Of a stretch of DNA of 64,000 nt, positions 1,181 through 55,936 are shown in pieces. Origin of the DNA: Picosynechococcus sp. PCC 7117. Its GTDB lineage: Bacteria; Cyanobacteriota; Cyanobacteriia; Cyanobacteriales; MRBY01. The stretch covers positions 2,356,001-2,420,000 of the forward strand of contig NZ_CP016477.1 in the NCBI RefSeq assembly GCF_001693275.1. The letters run 5' to 3'. Each line of letters opens with the position of its first letter. Positions within the stretch are counted from its first letter, which is position 1. Both the position numbers and the translations under genes were made by a program. Under the pieces are notes generated by a model, which made no database searches, was not told where the DNA came from, and saw only the letters and a list, made by a program, of their open reading frames with translations.

Positions 1181-1939
1181 TTATGATTGCTGATCACCCA
1201 TCGTAACAGGTGCTGGGACGATAATGTAACCGGAGTGGCGATCGCCAAGGGTTTGGTTTTTCGCCTGGCCCCAGTACCACCAGTAGGCGCCCACATAGGC
1301 ACAAACTAAGGCATCGATGCGGTCTTCGATTTCCTTGAGATCAGTGCCTTTGGCCGTTGGGATCGGTTGAACGAGATCGTCCCAGCGGTGATTTAAGCTC
1401 AATTGCGGGGTAAGAGTCGTCAATACCGCTTCAATCAGACCCACCAAACGTTGTAATTCCTGGCGGCGATCGCCTAACTTTCCTTTTTTGTATTTGATAA
1501 TTCGATCCAGTTGAAATAGACGCACCATCGCCGGGTGGGGAAACACCTCAATCTGGTAACGGCCCGGTTTTCGAGCATCAATTTCTGGGACATGGCCAAA
1601 GCCTAAGGCCTCAAGATCAAAGCCCAATTGGGTGGTACGGGGCGCGAAGGGGCGGTTTAAATTCGCTGGATAACAACCCGCGTGGTATTTCCCAAAATAT
1701 TTGTGGGTGAGGCGATCCGGGAGGCGCGTTCCCGTTTCATTGGGGATAACTGTCGGTGCATCCACCGCAACGAGGCCCATTGTTTCTTTCGGGAGCAGTT
1801 GATCAACCCAAGTGACGATCTCGCGGGGATCAAGAAGCAGGTCAAACTGGGCGATCGCCAATTGCTGATCTTGTATTTCTAAACAACACAAACCACTGGC
1901 ACCGGACGTCCAACCAAAATCAACCCCCAGAAATTTCAC
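1181..1939 (-). CDS. DUF429 family protein (predicted RNase H-like fold)
   Basis: A 252-residue DUF429 protein. The N-terminus (KFLGVDFGWTSG) resembles the first beta-hairpin with a catalytic-type Asp of the RNase H/actin-like fold, and further acidic positions occur in VAVDAPT and in EIEDRIDALVCAYVG, as expected for a predicted nuclease-like superfamily. The biochemical role of DUF429 is not established, so no function is claimed. Its start codon immediately follows the stop of the upstream pentapeptide-repeat gene, so the two are almost certainly co-transcribed and probably translationally coupled. Confidence 0.8.
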   Translation of the reverse strand: MKFLGVDFGWTSGASGLCCLEIQDQQLAIAQFDLLLDPREIVTWVDQLLPKETMGLVAVDAPTVIPNETGTRLPDRLTHKYFGKYHAGCYPANLNRPFAPRTTQLGFDLEALGFGHVPEIDARKPGRYQIEVFPHPAMVRLFQLDRIIKYKKGKLGDRRQELQRLVGLIEAVLTTLTPQLSLNHRWDDLVQPIPTAKGTDLKEIEDRIDALVCAYVGAYWWYWGQAKNQTLGDRHSGYIIVPAPVTMGDQQS

Positions 1940-2788
1940 TTAATTACCCACATCAAGACCTTCGGGGAGAATTGTCCCATCAAAAATCGCGTTGTGGAAA
2001 TTTACTTGATCCACCGTTGCATCCAGCAGCACGGCCCGGGTCAGATTCGCACTGGTGAAATTTGACCAATAAAGCTTACTACGGAAAAGTTGAGCCTCAC
2101 TCAGATCCGCCCCCCGCATGGTTGTCCAGGCCATTTGCACCTTCCGGAGTACCGCCTGGCGCAGTTTAACGTTGGTAAAGTTGGCGCTATTGAGTTTCGC
2201 CTGGCTAAAGTCTGCGTGGTCGGCGATCGCCCCAGTGGCATTGACCCCGTGCATAATTGCGTGGGAAAGGTTGGCTCCCTTTAAATTCGCGCCGATCAAA
2301 ATCGTGCTGGTGAGGTTCGCATTGGCAAGGTTGGCCCCTTCTAGGTTGGCCTGGGTTAAGTTCGCCCGCCCAATAAAGGCATCCGTTAAGGTCGCGTTGG
2401 TCAGGTTGGCTTCCCGCAAAATCGCTTCGTTGAGGGTGGCACAACTGAGATCCGCTGAGACCAGTTGAGCATTGGTTAAATTGGCTGCCCGGAGTCCCCC
2501 ATAGGTGAGTTGGGCGGTGGTTAAATTCGCGTCGGTCAGGTCACAAGAAATTAAATTCGCTTCACTGAGATTGGCTTGGAGACTGCTATTGGTAAGATCT
2601 GCCTCCCGAAAATTTGCCTGCTTAAGGGATGCCCCCGTGAACACAATCCGGGACAAATGACTTTCCCGCAGATTGATCCCATCAAAGTTGCCGCCCCCCA
2701 AAAACGCCCCTTCAAGGTCTACTTCCCGGAAATCCCGTTCTCCGGCCGCATAGCGTTTTAATAATTCTCCCGCATCCATTCGTTTCAA
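1940..2788 (-). CDS. Pentapeptide repeat protein
   Basis: The 282-residue protein is almost wholly made of A(N/D)LXX-type pentapeptide repeats from about residue 20 to the end (for example ANLTNAQL, ANLEGANLANANL). Such tandem repeats fold into a right-handed quadrilateral beta-helix. No signal peptide or membrane segment precedes the repeats, so it is probably cytoplasmic. Cyanobacteria carry many such proteins and most have no known role. The stop codon abuts the start of the DUF429 gene, which links the two in one transcript. The family call is certain; the function is unknown. Confidence 0.92.
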   Translation of the reverse strand: MKRMDAGELLKRYAAGERDFREVDLEGAFLGGGNFDGINLRESHLSRIVFTGASLKQANFREADLTNSSLQANLSEANLISCDLTDANLTTAQLTYGGLRAANLTNAQLVSADLSCATLNEAILREANLTNATLTDAFIGRANLTQANLEGANLANANLTSTILIGANLKGANLSHAIMHGVNATGAIADHADFSQAKLNSANFTNVKLRQAVLRKVQMAWTTMRGADLSEAQLFRSKLYWSNFTSANLTRAVLLDATVDQVNFHNAIFDGTILPEGLDVGN

Positions 2789-3053
2789 AATGGTATTCCT
2801 CCTGAGACTGTGATTGGGCCAAGGCTGTGACCCAAGACATGGCGAATATGAACTTTATGAGTTTTATGAATCTTTGGTCTGCTTTATCGCATTGTAGAGT
2901 TAGTGGTCTGGGGATTGGCGATCGCCGCAATGAAACGATAATTGTCAGATGAAATTTTCCCCAATAAAAATCCCACAGACGATCTGGAGTTGTAATCAAG
3001 CATCGATCTATGGGGAACCTAATGGAAATGGGCCGAGGCCACAAAAGTCGGTT

Positions 3054-3422
3054 TTATTCGAAGGTTTCTGTGGGGGTGATGAGCGAACTTTCCTCCGGAG
3101 TTCCATTAACAGCAGAGGTTTCGGCTTGTTTTTTCTGACGCCAATATTCCTGTAGTCGGGAGCGATAATCGGCAGCCGCGTTATTAATGTTGGAGTTTGT
3201 GCTCTCGCGGAATTGTTCTGGATCCTTATTGCCTAAGCGCATCATGTGGATCAAATCATAGGGATTGAAGCCATCTGTGTTGCCATAGAGGGAAGAATTT
3301 TCGCTTTGCTGATAGTTTCCTTCGAGATCGCTGGCAGTTTGGGCTTGGCTCGGCGCGAAGGGCACACTGGCGATCGCGACACTAAAACCACAGATGAGAG
3401 TTAGTAGAGCAGGTTTTTTCAT
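3054..3422 (-). CDS. Secreted hypothetical protein
   Basis: Small exported protein of unknown function. From the ATG at 3422 it is 122 residues: MKKP, then a hydrophobic stretch (ALLTLICGFSVAIASVPF) and a cleavage-like SQAQTA site, which together make a typical Sec signal peptide. The mature part is polar, rich in Asn, Ser and Gln, and contains no Cys. In-frame ATGs at 3449 and 3479 would add 9 or 19 residues before the signal peptide; I prefer 3422 because the MKK start is a typical signal-peptide n-region. I see no recognised domain. Confidence 0.6.
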   Translation of the reverse strand: MKKPALLTLICGFSVAIASVPFAPSQAQTASDLEGNYQQSENSSLYGNTDGFNPYDLIHMMRLGNKDPEQFRESTNSNINNAAADYRSRLQEYWRQKKQAETSAVNGTPEESSLITPTETFE

Positions 3423-3543
3423 GGGCTTATCGGCAATGGAGTTGCGCATAGATCGTCTTTGATGACCATTGTGCCGCAAAAAAGTTTCAGGCGTGAGGAT
3501 AATTACCCTCGGTTTATGGTGAAATTTTGGCTTTGGCGCACCG

Positions 3544-3570
3544 ACAAAAAACGTCCCCCCACGGGAGACG
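3544..3570 (-). terminator. Rho-independent terminator downstream of petP
   Basis: Read on the minus strand, an 8-bp stem CGTCTCCC / GGGGGACG (one G-T pair) is followed directly by TTTTTTG. It lies about 40 bases after the petP stop codon and before the next minus-strand gene, which fits an intrinsic terminator for petP. Confidence 0.75.
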
Positions 3571-3607
3571 CCTCGGTGGTCTAATTGGGCAGTTAGAAAA
3601 ATGTGTC

Positions 3608-3802
3608 CTAGGATGCAGGACGCAGTTCATCCCCAAAAAACCAAGTGGCGGTTTTATCATCAAAGGTCACGATCGCCCCAATGCCGCTACCGTCGGTGAC
3701 GCGAAAGTCTGTGATGGTGCCTACTTTACCGAGTTTATCGGCGAGATCTTTACCAACACGATCCCGCAAACGGTAGATTTGTACTTTTTGCCCGATTTCC
3801 AT
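3608..3802 (-). CDS. petP: Cytochrome b6f-associated subunit PetP (DUF2862)
   Basis: A 64-residue protein matching the cyanobacterial PetP/DUF2862 family, an SH3-like peripheral subunit of the cytochrome b6f complex on the cytoplasmic side of the thylakoid. The sequence starts MEIGQKVQIYRLRDRVG and contains the family's KLGKVGTITDFRVTDG and WFFGDELRP segments. There is no membrane span, as expected for a peripheral subunit. It is followed by its own hairpin terminator and preceded on the same strand by the recombinase-like gene about 40 bases away. Recognition rests on remembered family sequence rather than a search. Confidence 0.8.
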   Translation of the reverse strand: MEIGQKVQIYRLRDRVGKDLADKLGKVGTITDFRVTDGSGIGAIVTFDDKTATWFFGDELRPAS

Positions 3803-3843
3803 GCCAATTATTGCTGTACTAATAAAGGTTTAGTTAGATTAAA

Positions 3844-5169
3844 TCATTCATCAGTGTATCGGAAACTGGTCGCAAAGATGAATTTTAGCTGGATTTGCCA
3901 ATCGTCACGGCTAGTACGGCGGAGTTGGATTTGTTCGATAAATTCCCGCAGGTAAAAGCGCCGCTCGGCTTCGGATAGGTCATACCAAAAAGATTCGAGG
4001 GTGATGGTTTTGGCGATCGCCCCCAGGTTAGCGGGGGGAAGTTGGTTTAGTTGGGTTTGCAGTTGGCTAATTTCGCTACGCAGCACATAGCGGCGTTGGG
4101 CAGCCGTTTCTGGGTCAAAAATGCCCTGGGCCGTGAGATCCGGGAGGGCGGCAATGAGGCTTTCCTTTTGTTGAATCTCCTGTTGAATCTGGCCCTGTTG
4201 CTGATCTAGGGAGGGGCCTTGGTATTGCTGGGCGATCGCGGGGAACTCCTGGCAAATGCTTTGTACGGTGGCCCGGAAAATTTTGTCGTAGGCGATCGCC
4301 CGGCATTTGGGCTTGCGGGGGCAGGCGAGGGGACGCAGGTATAAATAGGTTTTGGAATGATTACGCCGACTGACACGGCTAATGGTGAGGGCACTGCCAC
4401 AGGTTTGACATTGCACCAGCCCGGCCAAACAGCGGGGGGCACTGGCACTGCGGGGGGCGAGGGGACGATTACGGCGCAGGAGGCGATCAATTTGGGCGGC
4501 TTCGTTGTCGGTGAGGATTGCGGCGTGGGTTTTGGGAATGGTTGTTCCGTCACAGTAATGGAGCTGACCCCGGTAGACAGGATTGCTTAACCAGTTGCGC
4601 CCGGTGGATACGGCAATTTTTTTCCCAAAGCGCTGTTCTAGGTGACGCACGGCCCCCCGCAGGGAACCGAAGAGAAGAAAATGTTCACAAAAATCTTTGA
4701 CCACGGGGGCGGTACTGCGGTCGATGAGGTAACGGTCTTGGCCTCGCTTGTAACCGTAGGGGGCTTTGCCTGGGGGTGGCAGAAATTGGCGGCGGTTTTT
4801 GGCGTGGCCCCGTTGAATTTTTTGTTGTCTGAGGCGATCGCCAATGGTTTGAAAGAGTTGGCCCAGGGCTTTTTGATCCAGCGGTTGATCGCTTTGGTAA
4901 TCTTGCTCGGTAGCGATAATCCCCACACCATAATTTTCGATGTGCTGGAGGCGATCGCCAATCTCGCTGAGGTTATCCCCCAATTCATCGAGGCGACGTA
5001 GTAGTAAATAATCAGGGCGATCGCCGGCGTCGAGATCCGTGAGTAACTGGGTGAGCTGTTGCCGTTGCCCCCAATCGCTATAAATGCGATCGACCTCGAC
5101 CCCCCATAGTTCTGGTTCTGGGGCGGCATCCAGGAGTGGGTCACTGTAGCTGTAGACAAAAATTGTCAT
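3844..5169 (-). CDS. Serine recombinase homologue (XisF-like) with altered active site
   Basis: A 441-residue large serine recombinase-like protein. Order: resolvase-type N-terminal domain (about 1-130), recombinase domain (about 140-240, APYGYKRG...), a zinc ribbon (CQTCG with a later CPRKPKC), then a Gln-rich coiled coil (about 320-380). Family: XisF/CcrB-type recombinases that excise DNA elements. The active site is unusual. Ser9 lines up with the nucleophile, but the usual YARVS is YSYS, so the first Arg is Ser. The usual LDRLGR is LDELGD (61-65), which puts Glu and Asp where two essential arginines sit. Arg36 is kept. No inverted repeats, att sites or other mobile genes flank it. It may be a domesticated DNA-binding or regulatory descendant. 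A GGAGG lies 13 bases before the ATG. Confidence 0.82.
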   Translation of the reverse strand: MTIFVYSYSDPLLDAAPEPELWGVEVDRIYSDWGQRQQLTQLLTDLDAGDRPDYLLLRRLDELGDNLSEIGDRLQHIENYGVGIIATEQDYQSDQPLDQKALGQLFQTIGDRLRQQKIQRGHAKNRRQFLPPPGKAPYGYKRGQDRYLIDRSTAPVVKDFCEHFLLFGSLRGAVRHLEQRFGKKIAVSTGRNWLSNPVYRGQLHYCDGTTIPKTHAAILTDNEAAQIDRLLRRNRPLAPRSASAPRCLAGLVQCQTCGSALTISRVSRRNHSKTYLYLRPLACPRKPKCRAIAYDKIFRATVQSICQEFPAIAQQYQGPSLDQQQGQIQQEIQQKESLIAALPDLTAQGIFDPETAAQRRYVLRSEISQLQTQLNQLPPANLGAIAKTITLESFWYDLSEAERRFYLREFIEQIQLRRTSRDDWQIQLKFIFATSFRYTDE

Positions 5170-5191
5170 CCGCCTTGAACCCTCCTTCGGT

Positions 5192-9072: not shown

Positions 9073-10407
9073 TCAACCCACCAATAAATTTTCTTCGGGA
9101 TAGCTAATGCGGCGTGGGGTGATTTCCCCGACGATGGCCGACATCAGCAAGAGTACCCCGACCCGACCACAGTACATGGTGGCAATTAGGGTCAGTTGAC
9201 CGACAGCAGAAAGGCTGGCAGTAATCCCCGTGGACAGGCCAACGGTGGCAAAGGCCGAAATCACCTCAAACAAAATCGCAATCAATTCGATCTCAGGGTT
9301 GCTGATGGAAATAATCGCTGTAGCAATGGTAATCACGGTGGCAGAACCGAACACAACGGCGATCGCCTTAAAAACGATACTCTGGGCAATTTCACGGTCA
9401 AAAACAGTGACACGGGTTTGACCATAGAGCACGGATTTGGTGCAATTCGCCAGGATATTAATGGTGGTTGTTTTGATCCCGCCCCCGGTGCCACTGGGAC
9501 TCGCCCCAATAAACATCAAACCCATGGTGATAAACAGTCCGGCGGTACTCAGCTTGCCGATGTCAATGCTATTAAACCCAGCGGTGCGGGTGGTCACCGA
9601 TTGAAACCAAGCGGCGATCGCCTTATCACCCCAACTCATCCCCGCAAAGGTGGTTGGATTGGCCCATTCCACAAACAAAAAAGCCACAGTCCCCAGACCC
9701 AGGAGCCAGAAGGTGGTAGAGGTGACCACTTCAAAATTCAACGAAAAGGTAAAGCGTCGGCTTTTGCGCTGGAGACGGTGCCGCAACCACAGATACATTT
9801 CGATGATCGCCTCATAACCAATGCCACCAAAAATGATCAAGCCAGAGATCGCCCCGTTCACCAGGAGAGAATTTTGATAGCCCACTAAACTATCCGCAAA
9901 CAAACTGAAGCCCGCATTGTTCCAGGCGCTGATGCTGTGAAAAATTGCGAGCCATAACCCCTCACCAGGATCAAAATCTCGACTAAACCGCCCAAAAAGC
10001 AGGAAAATCCCCGTCAGTTCCCCAATGAGCGTGGTAGCGATAATCGAACGAATCAAATTTCGACTACCTTGGTTGTAGGGTTGGTCAAAGGATTCTTTAA
10101 TGGCAAATTTTTGGGCCAAGTCAAACCGACGCCCCAGCAGCAGCATGAGAAATGTCGAGAGGGTCATGTAGCCTAGTCCCCCCAGTTGGATCAACAGAAG
10201 AATAACTCCCTGGCCAAAGTTGGAAAAGGCTGTGCCTGTATCCACCACAATTAATCCTGTAACACAAACGGCGGAAGTCGAGGTAAATAGGGCGACGAGG
10301 GGACTATTCCATTCCCCGGAGGCGGTGGAAAAAGGCAACATTAAAAGCAACGTACCCAATAGAATAGCTCCGAGAAAGCCGAGGCAAATGGTTCTGGCGA
10401 TGGTCAT
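9073..10407 (-). CDS. ktrB: K+ uptake channel subunit KtrB (TrkH/NtpJ family)
   Basis: Integral membrane K+-translocating subunit of the Ktr system. The 444-residue protein shows the fourfold membrane-pore-membrane plan with pore-loop motifs such as TSAVCVTGLIVVDT (near 45-60), SAWNNAGFSLF, SVTTRTAGFNSID and SAFATVGLSTGIT, each with the filter glycine. About ten hydrophobic segments are visible. KtrA follows downstream, and a glycosyltransferase gene lies 55 bases upstream on the same strand. Confidence 0.95.
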   Translation of the reverse strand: MTIARTICLGFLGAILLGTLLLMLPFSTASGEWNSPLVALFTSTSAVCVTGLIVVDTGTAFSNFGQGVILLLIQLGGLGYMTLSTFLMLLLGRRFDLAQKFAIKESFDQPYNQGSRNLIRSIIATTLIGELTGIFLLFGRFSRDFDPGEGLWLAIFHSISAWNNAGFSLFADSLVGYQNSLLVNGAISGLIIFGGIGYEAIIEMYLWLRHRLQRKSRRFTFSLNFEVVTSTTFWLLGLGTVAFLFVEWANPTTFAGMSWGDKAIAAWFQSVTTRTAGFNSIDIGKLSTAGLFITMGLMFIGASPSGTGGGIKTTTINILANCTKSVLYGQTRVTVFDREIAQSIVFKAIAVVFGSATVITIATAIISISNPEIELIAILFEVISAFATVGLSTGITASLSAVGQLTLIATMYCGRVGVLLLMSAIVGEITPRRISYPEENLLVG

Positions 10408-51037: not shown

Positions 51038-52420
51038 ATGGTCAATACCCAACTCCCCAATCTCACCCCCCAGACAGACAAGCATAAAGTGGTGATTATC
51101 GGTGGCGGTTTTGGTGGTCTTTATGCCGCGAAAACCCTCGGTAAATATGAGGCTGCCGTGGATGTCACCCTGATCGACAAACGGAACTTCCACCTGTTTC
51201 AACCGCTGCTGTACCAAGTGGCAACGGGAACTCTCTCTCCGGCGGATATTGCCTCACCCCTGCGCGGTGTCCTCAGCGGCAACAAAAACACCCATGTGCT
51301 CCTTGATGAAGTTGTAGACATTGAGCCCGATAGCAAAACGGTGGTGATGAACGAAGGGATCGTCAACTATGACAGTTTGATTGTCGCCACGGGGGTCAGC
51401 CACCACTATTTTGGGAATGACCATTGGAAACCCTACGCACCGGGCCTGAAAACCGTTGAGGATGCCCTCGAAATTCGCCACCGCATCTTTATGGCCTTTG
51501 AAGCGGCGGAAAAAGAAACAGATCCGGCACTCCAACAGGCTTGGTTGACCTTTGTGATCGTGGGTGGTGGCCCGACGGGGGTAGAATTGGCCGGGGCGAT
51601 CGCCGAAATTGCCTATAGCGTTCTGAAAAAAGATTTCCGCAAAATTGATACCACCCGCGCCCGGATTATTCTCCTAGAAGGGATGGATCGGGTCTTGCCC
51701 CCCTACGATCCAAGTTTGTCGGCAAAAGCGCAAAAATCCCTGGAAAATCTGGGTGTGCAGGTACAAACCAAGAGCCTCGTGACGAATATCGAAGACCACC
51801 TTGTCACCTTTAAGCAGGGCGATGACCAGCTTGAAATTGCTGCAAAAACCATTGTCTGGGCCGCTGGGGTGAAAGCGTCTGGCATGAGTAAAGTCCTCGA
51901 AGACCGTTTAAGCGCGACCCTAGACCGAGCTGGTCGGGTCATCGTCGAGCCGAACCTGAGCGTTGCGGGCTACCCCGATGTATTCGTGATTGGGGACTTG
52001 GCCAACTTCCCCCACCAAAATGAACGGCCTTTACCTGGGGTTGCACCGGTGGCGATGCAAGAAGGGGAATATGTGGCAAAACTGATCAAACAACGGGTCA
52101 ATGGTCAGGAGATGGCGCCTTTTCGTTACATGGAATTGGGTAGCCTAGCCGTGATCGGCCAAAATGCCGCCGTTGTGGATCTCGGTTTTGTGAAATTCTC
52201 TGGGTTCCTGGCCTGGTTAATTTGGATCTTCGCCCACGTTTACTACCTGATCGAGTTTGATAACAAGATGGTGGTGATGCTCCAGTGGGGTTGGAACTAC
52301 TTTACTAGAGGTCGGGGGGCTCGTCTGATCACCGGAGAAAAGGATCTCGTCTCTGGATTCAAGCTCTACCAAGAAACTGCTGATAAGGAAACGAAGGTCA
52401 ACATCAAAGTCGAAGCCTAA
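51038..52420 (+). CDS. ndbB: Type II NAD(P)H dehydrogenase
   Basis: Single-subunit, non-proton-pumping NAD(P)H:quinone oxidoreductase, 460 residues. FAD-binding IIGGGFGGLYAAKTL, NAD(P)H-binding IVGGGPTGVELAGAIAE, and the C-terminal FAD loop DVFVIGDLANF are all present. The C-terminal part is hydrophobic (FLAWLIWIFAHVYYLIEF), probably the membrane-dipping segment. Which of NdbA/B/C it corresponds to cannot be told with certainty by eye; the symbol is tentative. A perfect palindrome terminator follows. Confidence 0.88.
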   Translation: MVNTQLPNLTPQTDKHKVVIIGGGFGGLYAAKTLGKYEAAVDVTLIDKRNFHLFQPLLYQVATGTLSPADIASPLRGVLSGNKNTHVLLDEVVDIEPDSKTVVMNEGIVNYDSLIVATGVSHHYFGNDHWKPYAPGLKTVEDALEIRHRIFMAFEAAEKETDPALQQAWLTFVIVGGGPTGVELAGAIAEIAYSVLKKDFRKIDTTRARIILLEGMDRVLPPYDPSLSAKAQKSLENLGVQVQTKSLVTNIEDHLVTFKQGDDQLEIAAKTIVWAAGVKASGMSKVLEDRLSATLDRAGRVIVEPNLSVAGYPDVFVIGDLANFPHQNERPLPGVAPVAMQEGEYVAKLIKQRVNGQEMAPFRYMELGSLAVIGQNAAVVDLGFVKFSGFLAWLIWIFAHVYYLIEFDNKMVVMLQWGWNYFTRGRGARLITGEKDLVSGFKLYQETADKETKVNIKVEA

Positions 52421-52444
52421 TAAATTCTTAACCCATTAACCTGT

Positions 52445-52475
52445 AGGGGCGTTCCATGGAACGCCCCTGTTTTTC
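52445..52475 (+). terminator. Perfect 24-base palindrome plus T-run after ndh
   Basis: AGGGGCGTTCC fused to its exact complement, AGGGGCGTTCC / GGAACGCCCCT around a central AT (52445-52468), followed by GTTTTT. It makes an uninterrupted 11-bp stem with almost no loop, suitable as a terminator, and the same sequence type (AGGGGCGTTCCATGGAACG...) is widely dispersed in cyanobacterial genomes as a repeat. Confidence 0.8.
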
Positions 52476-52567
52476 GTTGAGTATGTTAGTGATTTTGGGG
52501 TGGATGGTGTTGGGGTTGGGCGATACTATGGAGAAATTATTGTTTTTTCTTGTGGGCTGAGTGACCG

Positions 52568-55312
52568 ATGGCAGTAACCCGTGATTCTCTCCAGGCGTTT
52601 GTGGATTACTGTAATGCCTATATCCAGGGGGATGAAAAGTCAGAGGCACAGACATTTTTAACGCGATTTTTCCAAGCCTTTGGCCATGCTGGGATCAAGG
52701 AAGTTGGGGCCGAGTTTGAGGAGCGGGTCAAAAAAGCGAGCAAGAAAGATAAAACAGGTTTTGCAGATTTGGTCTGGTCGCCCGCCCCTGGGGTAAAGGG
52801 AGTCGTGGTGGAGATGAAAAAGCGCGGGACAGATCTGGCGCTGCATTATTCTCAGCTCGAAAAATATTGGCTGCGGCTCACCCCGAAACCACGCTATTCG
52901 ATTCTCTGTAATTTTGATGAGTTTTGGGTCTATGACTTTAACAACCAGGTCGATGAGCCTGTAGACCGGGTCAAGCTAGAAGATCTCCCGAATCGGGTAG
53001 GGACATTTTCGTTTATGGAGATCGGTGGTCGGGAGCCGATCTTTCGGAACAATCAGGTCGAGGTGACGGAACGCACGGCCAAGCGCATGGGGGAATTTTA
53101 TCGGCTGGTGCGATCGCGGGGCGAAAGGGAAAAGTTTGTTTATTTCACAGAAGCGCAACTGCAACGGTTTACCCTGCAATGCGTCCTAGCGATGTTTGCC
53201 GAAGACCGGAACCTCCTGCCACGGGATCTATTTGTGGGGTTGGTGCAGGACTGTTTAGCGGGGCGAGATAATGCCTACGATGCCTTTAGTGGGTTGTTTC
53301 GGGCGATGAACTTGCCGGGGATCGTGCCCCAGGGTCGTTACAAGGGGGTGGATTATTTTAATGGGGGTTTATTTGGGGAGATTCAGCCGATTCCGTTAGA
53401 AAAGAGCGAGTTAGAAATTCTCGATGTGTGTGCGCGGGATAATTGGGCGAATATCCGACCGTCGATTTTTGGAAATATTTTTGAGAGTGCCATTGATGCG
53501 GATGAGCGCCACGCCAGGGGAATTCATTACACTTCTGAGAAGGATATCCGGCAGATTGTGCGCCCGACGATCGCCGACTATTGGGAAGGGAAAATTGACC
53601 AAGCGACGACCTATGAAGATCTCGAAAAGCTGAAGCAGGAATTACGGGAATATCGGGTATTGGATCCGGCGTGCGGTTCGGGAAATTTCCTTTATGTGGC
53701 GTATCAGGAGTTGAAGCGGCTGGAACGGGTTTTGCTCAACAAAATCTATGAGCGGCGCAAACGGTTCCAGGGGGAAGTTTTACAGCAGGAAGAAATCGGG
53801 ATTGTGACGCCGTTGCAGTTTTTTGGGATGGATACAAATCCGTTTGCGGTGCAGTTGGCGCGGGTGACGATGATGATCGCCCGGAAGATTGCGATTGATA
53901 AGTTTGGGTTGAATGAGCCTGCTTTGCCGTTGGATTCTTTGGATCAAAATATTGTCTGCCAAGATGCGCTGTTTAATGACTGGCCAAAGGCTGACGCGAT
54001 CATCGGGAATCCGCCTTTTCTTGGTGGTTCAAGAATTCGTTTAGAGCTTGGAGATAAGTATGCAGAAAAAGTATTTCAACAATTTTCTGATATGAGAGCA
54101 CAAGTAGATTTCGCAAGCTACTGGTTCCGAAAAGCACATGATTATCTAGATAAAACTGGTCGAGCTGGTTTGGTTGCAACTAACTCTATTAGTCAAGGAA
54201 AAAGTAGATCTGTATCCTTAGATTATATATCTAATAATGGAGGAGTAATTCATAATGCAATATCGACTCAGCCATGGTCTGGAGAAGCTGCAGTTTATGT
54301 CAGTATAGTAAATTGGTGTAAACAAGAAGCTGATATTTATTGGCTTGATAACAAACAGGTTGCAAGCATAAATTCCGCGCTTAAATCTAGCATAGATTGT
54401 TCCCTATCTATTCATCTCAATGCAAACTCAAAATTTTCTTTTATTGGATGTCAGCCTAATGGCAAAGATTTTTTCATAGAAGAATCACTAGCTAGTGAAT
54501 GGATTAAAACAAAAGCATTTAATTCTGAAGTAGTCAAAAAAACTTACTCAGCACAAGATTTAGTGAATTCATTATTTTTAGAGCCTCAAAAATATATTAT
54601 TGACTTTGCTGATCGAAATCTAGAAGACATAATTAAGTATAAAATCCCTCTTGAGCATATAAAAAAATACGTCAAACCAGTAAGAGAAAAAAATAGGGAG
54701 TCTGTACTGCGAGAAAAATGGTGGAGATTCAAACGAACCAATTCTTCAATGCGTAAGGCATTAAAAAATCTCAAGTATTATTTTTGTGTTCCATGCCATT
54801 CAAAGTGGTTTATTTTTTTGATTGCAAAACAAGAATGGTTACCAAATAATTCCGTCGCAGTGGTAGCTTCGGATGATTTTTATGTGTTGGGAATTTTGAC
54901 ATCGGATGTCCATCGCCAATGGGTCAAAGCTCAAAGCTCATCATTGGGGGAGACACTCCGCTACACTCCGAATACTTGTTTTGAAACCTTTCCCTTTCCC
55001 CAGATGGCGATCGCAAAACTCACCCAACAGATCCACCAAGCGATGATCGATCTCCATGACTACCGCACCGCCCAAATGGAAGCCAAACAATGGGGGATCA
55101 CCAAACTTTACAACGCCTTTTTCGACGAACCCGCCAGCCAACTCCATAAACTCCACAAAAAGCTCGATGCCCTTGTGCTCAAAGCCTACGGCTTCAAAAA
55201 AGACGACGACATTCTCGAAAAACTGCTCCACCTAAACCTTGCCCTGGCCGAAAAAGAAAAAAATGGCGAAAATATAGTTGGCCCCTGGGCGATCGATAAC
55301 CCACCAAAATAA
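52568..55312 (+). CDS. MmeI-like type IIL restriction-modification enzyme
   Basis: A 914-residue single-chain enzyme: it cuts at a fixed distance and methylates its site with the same subunit. N-terminal PD-(D/E)xK nuclease: Asp67 and Glu82-x-Lys84 (in VVVEMKK), close to MmeI's 70/80/82. Helical spacer about 150-340. N6-adenine methyltransferase: SAM motif DPACGSGNF at 366-374 and catalytic NPPF at 481-484. The target-recognition region (about 485-800) ends near YTPNTCFETFPFP. The bases encoding it (about 54020-54970) are clearly AT-rich, while both flanks are GC-rich and HIP1-bearing. This suggests a swapped specificity module. A separate R or S gene is not needed and is not present. Confidence 0.92.
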   Translation: MAVTRDSLQAFVDYCNAYIQGDEKSEAQTFLTRFFQAFGHAGIKEVGAEFEERVKKASKKDKTGFADLVWSPAPGVKGVVVEMKKRGTDLALHYSQLEKYWLRLTPKPRYSILCNFDEFWVYDFNNQVDEPVDRVKLEDLPNRVGTFSFMEIGGREPIFRNNQVEVTERTAKRMGEFYRLVRSRGEREKFVYFTEAQLQRFTLQCVLAMFAEDRNLLPRDLFVGLVQDCLAGRDNAYDAFSGLFRAMNLPGIVPQGRYKGVDYFNGGLFGEIQPIPLEKSELEILDVCARDNWANIRPSIFGNIFESAIDADERHARGIHYTSEKDIRQIVRPTIADYWEGKIDQATTYEDLEKLKQELREYRVLDPACGSGNFLYVAYQELKRLERVLLNKIYERRKRFQGEVLQQEEIGIVTPLQFFGMDTNPFAVQLARVTMMIARKIAIDKFGLNEPALPLDSLDQNIVCQDALFNDWPKADAIIGNPPFLGGSRIRLELGDKYAEKVFQQFSDMRAQVDFASYWFRKAHDYLDKTGRAGLVATNSISQGKSRSVSLDYISNNGGVIHNAISTQPWSGEAAVYVSIVNWCKQEADIYWLDNKQVASINSALKSSIDCSLSIHLNANSKFSFIGCQPNGKDFFIEESLASEWIKTKAFNSEVVKKTYSAQDLVNSLFLEPQKYIIDFADRNLEDIIKYKIPLEHIKKYVKPVREKNRESVLREKWWRFKRTNSSMRKALKNLKYYFCVPCHSKWFIFLIAKQEWLPNNSVAVVASDDFYVLGILTSDVHRQWVKAQSSSLGETLRYTPNTCFETFPFPQMAIAKLTQQIHQAMIDLHDYRTAQMEAKQWGITKLYNAFFDEPASQLHKLHKKLDALVLKAYGFKKDDDILEKLLHLNLALAEKEKNGENIVGPWAIDNPPK

Positions 55313-55385: not shown

Positions 55386-55694
55386 ATGATTATCGATCAA
55401 ATTAAACATAAGCTTAAAAAAGGACAATTTGAATTTAGTCGTCATGCTTTTAAACGGGCAGTCGAAAGAAATATCAATGAACAAGAGTTAAAAGAAATAG
55501 CCGACACCATAGAAATCATTGAAGATTACCCTGACGATAAATATTCCCCTAGTTTTCTTTTGCTTGGATTTACCTATAATAATCGCGCTTTACATTTACA
55601 AGTTTCAAAATTGGAAACCAATTTATTAAAAATAATCACCCTATACGAACCAGATTTAAACGAATGGGACAATTACAAAATAAGGAGAAAGTAA
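55386..55694 (+). CDS. DUF4258 toxin-like protein
   Basis: A 102-residue small basic protein of the DUF4258 type (FEFSRHAFKRAVERNINEQEL, then YSPSFLLLGFTYNNRALHLQVS). This fold is related to RelE/MqsR-like toxins. It precedes a YgiT-type zinc-finger gene with a 2-base gap, the toxin-first order of mqsRA-type modules. The coding is AT-rich, unlike the host genes around it. Confidence 0.78.
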   Translation: MIIDQIKHKLKKGQFEFSRHAFKRAVERNINEQELKEIADTIEIIEDYPDDKYSPSFLLLGFTYNNRALHLQVSKLETNLLKIITLYEPDLNEWDNYKIRRK

Positions 55695-55696
55695 AA

Positions 55697-55936
55697 ATGT
55701 TTCAATGTCATGTCTGCCAATCTCAGCATTCAAAACAAGAAGTGACCAGTGAAGTTTTTCAAATCAACGGTAAATTTTATTTAGTTGAAAATATCCCTGT
55801 GGAAGTCTGCCAACAGTGCGGAGAAGAAACTTTTAGTCGTGAAACAACAGAAAAAATCCGCAAAATGCTCCATGAAGATCAACAGCCAGCAAGAACAATC
55901 ACAATGGACGTTTTCTCCTATCAAGCCGCCTCTTAA
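55697..55936 (+). CDS. YgiT-type zinc-finger antitoxin (MqsA-like)
   Basis: A 79-residue protein from the ATG at 55697, preceded by GGAG. Two CxxC knuckles (CHVCQ and CQQCGEE) bind zinc; the segment FYLVENIPVEVC between them matches the YgiT/MqsA family N-terminal domain. It lacks the DNA-binding HTH domain of MqsA, so it may only neutralise the toxin. The upstream start of the frame at 55664 overlaps the toxin gene and is rejected. Confidence 0.82.
   Translation: MFQCHVCQSQHSKQEVTSEVFQINGKFYLVENIPVEVCQQCGEETFSRETTEKIRKMLHEDQQPARTITMDVFSYQAAS

Follow-up and report, generated by a model that had tools for sequence, protein, structure and literature searches.

Sequence comparison indicates that the MmeI-like restriction-modification gene in the window (the whole stretch of 64,000 nucleotides that was analysed) combines a frame like that of its sister species, G002, with a specificity module like that of G003, a more distant species of the same genus. 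We put at about 90% the probability that this single-chain type IIL enzyme consists of an inherited frame and an exchangeable cassette: the N-terminal frame (nuclease, spacer, and methyltransferase to the NPPF motif) and the C-terminal helical part would be inherited with the genome, and the segment that starts in the loop behind NPPF and stops close to the end of the target-recognition domain (TRD) would be replaced through recombination in the conserved flanks. The earlier note proposed that recognition modules are exchanged in this type IIL gene, and mosaic alleles, mapped breakpoints, and contradictory trees strongly support this. The features are as follows.

52568..55312, + strand: type IIL (MmeI-like) fused restriction endonuclease/N6-adenine methyltransferase of 914 aa (Pfam, PADLOC, phmmer)
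52568..54028, + strand: N-terminal frame, codons 1-487, with nuclease, helical spacer, and methyltransferase to motif IV NPPF (GC3; identity and dS against G002)
54008..54019, + strand: NPPF motif IV, codons 481-484 (position 481; pairs with MmeI N481-F484)
54014..54883, + strand: AT-rich (low-GC3) stretch, codons 483-772 (maximum-likelihood change-point scan)
54029..54973, + strand: exchange block, codons 488 to about 802, with the second methyltransferase half and the TRD (crossover sites, divergent blocks, tree conflict)
54029..54034, + strand: codons 488-489 (S, R), the first residues of the exchanged block (aligned with MmeI S488, K489)
54863..54991, + strand: right crossover zone, codons 766-808 (block ends at 766, window versus G002, or at 802, G003 versus G005)
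54944..54961, + strand: codons 793-798, aligned with MmeI 805-810, the loop reading positions 4 and 6 (alignment to 5hr4)
54992..55312, + strand: C-terminal frame, codons 809-914 and stop, G002-like again (GC3 0.579 over codons 801-914; identity to G002)

Domain layout and neighbourhood of the MmeI-like gene

The 914-aa protein matched four MmeI models of Pfam, all above cut-off and in the order of the family: the nuclease-type N-domain (MmeI_N, 5.2e-23), the helical spacer (MmeI_hel, 9.3e-14), the methyltransferase (MmeI_Mtase, 8.2e-42), and the TRD (MmeI_TRD, 2.7e-13). PADLOC assigned residues 1-914 to Type IIG REase-MTase (PDLC03599, 1440 bits), and a phmmer search against solved structures returned MmeI (5hr4) as the sole match at E <= 0.001 (E 2.2e-67, residues 21-882). 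On the basis of these four domains and the 5hr4 match, the gene at 52568-55312 (+) is assigned as a fused type IIG/IIL restriction-modification gene. Enzymes of the MmeI family (type IIL) methylate one strand and cleave about 20/18 bases downstream. A D..ExK segment was found in the N-domain within codons 55-100, presumably the active residues of a PD-(D/E)XK nuclease, and the window enzyme is probably active. The Asp of this presumed motif is kept in the window, G002, G003, and G040. In the N-domain of the G005 allele (L004, codons 55-100) Ala replaces this Asp, and that allele may therefore methylate without cutting.

NPPF at 481-484 and Trp at 570 were present in all 18 tabulated alleles, the latter being the equivalent of MmeI W570, which stacks on the flipped adenine (PMC4833311). 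The window protein shares with MmeI (5hr4; PMC4833311) the domain order over residues 21-882, NPPF, Trp 570, and, in the N-domain, the D..ExK segment presumed to belong to the nuclease; unlike MmeI itself, it belongs to a cyanobacterial branch. The PglX methyltransferases of BREX and DrmMI of DISARM are recognisably similar to it, chiefly in the methyltransferase and TRD parts, but the window protein carries a fused MmeI-type N-terminal domain and scored at most 41.5 bits against the BREX PglX models of NCBIfam, far under their cut-offs of 400-900.

A small AT-rich gene pair lies directly behind the MmeI-like gene at 55386-55936 (+). It encodes a DUF4258 protein (Pfam, 8.8e-20) and a YgiT/MqsA-type zinc-finger antitoxin (NCBIfam, 9.9e-12) and is probably a toxin-antitoxin pair. 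The corresponding place in G002 is taken by a different sort of frame, 76 codons long, and similar frames were seen by eye in G005 and G001. The NADH dehydrogenase gene is separated from the MmeI-like gene by about 64 bases in the window (52420-52484) and by about 765 bases in G002 (L141). In G001, no copy of the MmeI-like gene was found in the 12 kb around the NADH dehydrogenase gene (L184), and only a 101-base piece, 94% identical to the 3' end of the window gene, is retained (L144, about 9439-9539), about 150 kb from that NADH dehydrogenase gene.

Mosaic alleles and the exchange unit

One genome per species was compared, so that the allele differences are between species, not strains. The sister species G002 carries a syntenic allele, the neighbouring DNA being 88-92% identical. 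Amino-acid identity between the window and G002 alleles was 95-100% in five bins of codons 1-480, 38-68% in five bins of codons 481-780, and 90-96% in two bins from codon 813 on. The dS of the N-terminal frame was 0.28-0.34, and the synonymous sites of codons 481-780 were at or near saturation. Between the window and G003 the frame was 76-89% identical over codons 1-480 and the middle 70-95%, and the frames place the window-G003 split before the window-G002 split. When informative sites were counted in 20-codon bins, G002 was favoured in 23 of 24 bins over codons 1-480, G003 in 16 of 16 over codons 481-800, and G002 in 6 of 6 from codon 801 on; the single exception in the N-terminal frame was bin 141-160, which favoured G003 by 8 sites to 3. 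Trees of 30 hand-picked rows, made by a quick method, were contradictory (AU p<1e-50): the frame rejected a grouping of the window with G003 (p 2e-104), and the block rejected a grouping of the window with G002 (p 3e-57). The block tree, with the same 30 rows, also rejected the four genus alleles and G040 as a single group (p 2e-6). The conserved frame with a variable middle that the earlier note expected among relatives was found here between related species. A middle conserved at normal divergence in every relative, which by the note would have refuted it, was not seen: G003 keeps the middle of the window gene, and G002, G005, and G040 do not.

It could be argued that no exchange took place and that selection for new specificities drives very rapid change of the middle through point mutations. 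TRDs do diversify, and the L115, L123, L125, and L129 pairs differ mainly from codon 605, codons 488-600 being 0.96-0.99 identical. Nevertheless, the window shares far more of its middle with G003 than with G002 despite the earlier split of the frames from G003, the frame and block trees conflict, and the edge at codon 487/488 is sharp. We therefore rejected fast point evolution in place of exchange, which we regard as extremely improbable.

The window gene is not the only mosaic. G003 and G005 form a second case, with a divergent block at codons 487-802. G002 and G005 are 78-82% identical over codons 481-600 but only 45-57% over 601-780, which indicates that the exchange block is mosaic within itself. 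A second MmeI-type enzyme encoded in the same genome (L188, G000:C1:388000-394500, ORF 1684-5172, 1163 aa) is a third case: identity to the G002 copy (L190) was 0.82-0.98 over codons 1-540, 0.25-0.48 over 601-900, and 0.78-0.92 from 961 on, with intermediate values in bins 541-600 (72%, holding NPPF at codon 569) and 901-960 (76%). Since the window module is also found in G003 of the same genus, it may be an older resident, and the G002 module may be the newcomer.

Informative sites mapped the left crossover sharply to codon 487/488, in the loop after NPPF. The divergent block between the window and G002 covers codons 488-766. The right edge is blurred over codons 766-808, with mixed informative sites in 775-807, and this zone holds a tract, VVASDDFYVLGILTSDVHRQW, that the alleles of the genus conserve well. 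In the MmeI-DNA structure, K487, S488, and K489 directly behind NPPF make minor-groove contacts at positions 2 and 4, and R810 is the last residue described as contacting a base (PMC4833311). By the 5hr4 alignment, K487-K489 correspond to window codons 487-489 and R810 to codon 798. The cyanobacterial cassette therefore does not begin where the TRD begins but already within the loop that makes the first base contacts, and its end lies close to the last of them.

Eleven contact columns were mapped (488, 489, 629, 743, 744, 761, 762, 793, 794, 796, 798). The window and G002 differ at seven of them (488, 489, 629, 743, 761, 794, and 796) and agree at four (744, 762, 793, and 798); codons 488-489 are SR in the window and G003, KH in G002, and KN in G005. 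The window and G003 agree at all contact columns except the position-6 pair, which is G-T in the window, E-R in G003, and K-D in G002, G005, and G040. In the cyanobacterial-type rows, 53 in number with the window itself and 52 relatives, the pair was K-D in 36, G-T in 8, E-R in 7, A-T in 1, and G-S in 1. These contact columns vary in the cyanobacterial alleles as they do in the MmeI family, with K-D and E-R pairs (PMC4833311). By the rules of that study, K-D (G002, G005, G040) predicts G:C and E-R (G003) predicts C:G at position 6, and R with D at the position-3 columns of G002, G005, and G040 predicts G:C there; the window combinations C/N and G/T, the latter at the position-6 columns, match none of the rules taken from it. 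The swap probably changes the recognised sequence. The differing position-6 loops of the window and G003 suggest that, on its right side, the window gene crossed over within the conserved tract of codons 766-791, so that this loop would be shuffled separately.

The family set comprised 117 matched loci, of which 97 spanned most of the gene and gave 92 aligned rows once duplicates had been removed; with the window's own copy (L111) left out, there were 53 cyanobacterial-type rows and 38 others. The two types were divided at a block identity to the window of at least 0.40, and a few of the others are cyanobacteria as well, L050 and L051 by title. The rows are mutually related, so that counts over rows or pairs are not independent events. 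In the cyanobacterial type, the rank correlation of pairwise distances with those of the frame was 0.46-0.87 over codons 1-480 and 0.08-0.30 over 481-800, and after the block it was 0.54 (801-840), 0.40 (841-880), and 0.21 (881-920). In the other 38 rows, rho stood at 0.37 in the first bin and 0.45 in the second, then at 0.61-0.80 over codons 81-600, 0.24-0.46 over 601-800, and 0.45-0.69 thereafter. Among 67 cyanobacterial-type pairs with a frame identity of at least 0.80, identity was lower by more than 0.15 in 62 pairs over codons 605-760 and in 48 over codons 488-600; the latter segment was thus exchanged in 48/67 close cyanobacterial-type pairs versus 2/16 of the others (Fisher p 2e-5, the pairs being non-independent).

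Two further observations concern the family. L012 and L050/L051 have frames 91% identical, codons 488-600 45-46%, codons 605-760 30%, and the C-terminal part 41-49%; here the exchange apparently took place across both block types of the family and extends as far as the gene end. The L006, L007, and L011 matches have one internal stop codon each, and G011 and G028 have tandem partial copies, so that decayed or split copies of the MmeI-like gene may be common.

Base composition of the specificity module

The GC-rich ends and AT-rich middle described in the earlier note were borne out by calculation, and the composition is not uniform. GC and GC3 were 0.505 and 0.576 for codons 1-484, 0.348 and 0.241 for codons 485-800, and 0.485 and 0.579 for codons 801-914. 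The change-point scan gave the low-GC3 block a log-likelihood gain of 56.4, far beyond the maximum of 11.8 among 300 synonymous-codon shuffles that preserved the amino acids and codon usage of the gene. The lowest GC3 over 120 codons was 0.17 in the MmeI-like gene, the next lowest being 0.39 (54 window ORFs of at least 150 aa). A left boundary right after NPPF (481-484) was correct within a few codons, the low-GC3 block starting at 483. On the right, AT-richness in this gene stops about 30 codons short of the boundary proposed at 54970; GC3 is already 0.50 in codons 781-812. HIP1 is indeed missing from the middle, the only two sites of the gene being at codons 181 and 814, one on each side. 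Since the chance of finding no HIP1 in 945 bases is 0.16 at window density and 0.22 at genome density, that is, 16-22% of the time, its absence has no significance for this gene and was rejected as evidence of a foreign middle. Over the 53 related rows, HIP1 occurred 8 times in 50,679 bases of block versus 32 times in 90,576 bases of frame (p 0.046).

The middle was AT-rich in 53/53 cyanobacterial-type rows, including quite different modules and AT-rich hosts, and the depression of GC3 was present even in hosts with a frame GC3 of about 0.2. The GC3 of the middle was below an amino-acid-matched expectation, calculated from the frame codon usage of each gene, in 53/53 cyanobacterial-type rows (mean 0.228 versus 0.416 expected) and, more weakly, in 35/38 others. 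Fourfold sites were below the frame over codons 605-800 in 53/53 cyanobacterial-type rows and 33/38 others, and over codons 488-600 in 51/53 and 20/38, respectively. The deficit runs from codon 481-488 to near 800 in the cyanobacterial type and over about 601-820 in the others. In both groups the composition edge tracks the exchange edge, with left edges at codon ~485 (53 rows) and ~600 (38 rows). A smaller GC3 dip is found within the frame of the cyanobacterial type at codons 456-470. The deficit is independent of low conservation: variable frame bins lack it and conserved block bins have it, so that low conservation as its cause is unsupported.

The depression always affects the same part of the protein, as expected if the TRD amino acids or their translation intrinsically required AT-rich codons. 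However, the deficit remains intact against the amino-acid-matched expectation and at fourfold sites, and in the 38 other rows the same methyltransferase half (488-600) shows no such deficit, being lower in only 20. Amino-acid composition was therefore rejected as the cause, and an intrinsic need, already contradicted for codons 488-600, is improbable.

Similar depressions were seen in other specificity genes. In the second MmeI-type gene, GC3 over codons 601-900 was 0.18-0.28 in both species. For type I systems, 30 loci were taken, and 18 were dropped because no HsdM was recognised beside HsdS in the fetched stretch; in 12/12 usable loci the GC3 of HsdS was below that of the adjacent HsdM. 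A type I hsdM-hsdS pair also lies about 15 kb before the window start (L189, G000:C1:2338000-2348000), with a GC3 of 0.33 for hsdS and 0.52 for hsdM.

That the base composition reveals a foreign origin, as the earlier note had it, is unsupported, the same block being AT-rich in all 53 cyanobacterial-type rows. Since the module is AT-rich in nearly all relatives, composition alone marks no newcomer. AT-richness appears to be a standing property of the exchanged specificity modules, not the dated trace of one import.

A recent import from an AT-rich organism, with a composition still unadapted to the host, is a possible but doubtful source of the low GC3. For the window and G003 modules, drift from an initial GC3 of 0.09 towards 0.55 gives as good a fit as stationarity. 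The dS between the window and G003 was lower in the block (0.53) than in the frame (0.79) in 199/200 bootstraps, which points to a somewhat later origin of the shared module than of the species themselves, the estimates being affected by codon bias. Against an import, the depression occurs in every cyanobacterial-type row down to a frame GC3 of about 0.2, and regressing the GC3 of the module on that of the frame gave a slope of 0.47 and an intercept of 0.03, which implies a source GC3 of about 0.06, below all 53 frames (lowest 0.19). No donor allele was found: the nearest, that of G003 in the same genus, is 86% identical over codons 486-795 and too distant for a donor. Outside the genus, the best match to the module was 58% among 386 genomes of the phylum and 60% among family loci. 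A search for a phage or plasmid reservoir found nothing close: all 119 plasmid records were below 60% to the module, the one matching phage record reached 27% only, and a viral-contig scan with a reach of close relatives only gave no module match. Four viral contigs encode the frame at 48-50% identity.

We tentatively favour, at somewhat less than even odds, a local equilibrium, in which a heterologous cassette that cannot pair with other alleles would escape GC-biased gene conversion and settle at a GC3 below that of the adjacent frame. In two groups that differ in their left edge, the GC3 step falls together with the exchange edge, the depression is also present in AT-rich hosts, in the second MmeI-type gene of two species, and in HsdS relative to HsdM, and low conservation fails to explain it. 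Across a wide variety of bacterial clades, GC has been reported to increase with recombination inside genes (PMC4450053); however, H. pylori and the Bacillus anthracis/cereus group are named as exceptions there, and the word cyanobacteria is absent from that report. In addition, relaxed codon selection would give the same picture, the small dip at codons 456-470 lies inside the frame, and a two-state fit ties with amelioration at equal likelihood. Because of this tie between stationary and ameliorating fits, dating the module by an amelioration model was rejected. Between an AT-rich reservoir and a lower equilibrium of the module itself, the evidence leans to the equilibrium, since the reservoir would need a GC3 below that of all frames and no source was found.

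Known parallels and implications

The exchange of TRDs is classic in type I HsdS, where recombinational replacement has been demonstrated to create new specificity (PMC3874165), and has been described in a type IIG S subunit (PMC3077401). As in these subunits, recombination in conserved flanks would replace the recognition domain of the window gene, and homologous recombination presumably made the swap. Unlike them, the window enzyme is a single chain with one TRD, and the cyanobacterial unit begins in the loop that follows NPPF and includes one half of the methyltransferase domain. The study of MmeI itself stresses residue changes that were engineered and residue changes that covary (PMC4833311). 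A partial literature search, which is no proof that none exist, found no report of natural cassette exchange or AT-rich modules in the MmeI family. The enzyme family and the kind of exchange are known; what deserves pursuit is where the unit has its edges and how, across the family, the edge in composition matches that of exchange.

Since cutting and methylating rely on a single reading module within one polypeptide, a replacement of the module would shift both specificities at once and non-lethally, the cell surviving. This would provide a natural route by which a one-chain restriction-modification enzyme changes its target safely, and the natural cut points, in the loop after NPPF and near the end of the TRD, would be useful for engineering. 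The results also correct a common inference, as low GC within a gene need not date an import. The match of composition and exchange edges, seen in two groups whose edges differ, opens the cause of AT-richness in accessory DNA to tests within single genes. It is conceivable, though we would not count on it, that specificity modules of type IIL enzymes and HsdS in general are AT-rich as unpairable heterologous cassettes that escape recombination of the GC-raising kind, and that a synonymous GC step marks the edges of the exchange units. If so, such a step within a gene could map exchange units from one genome.
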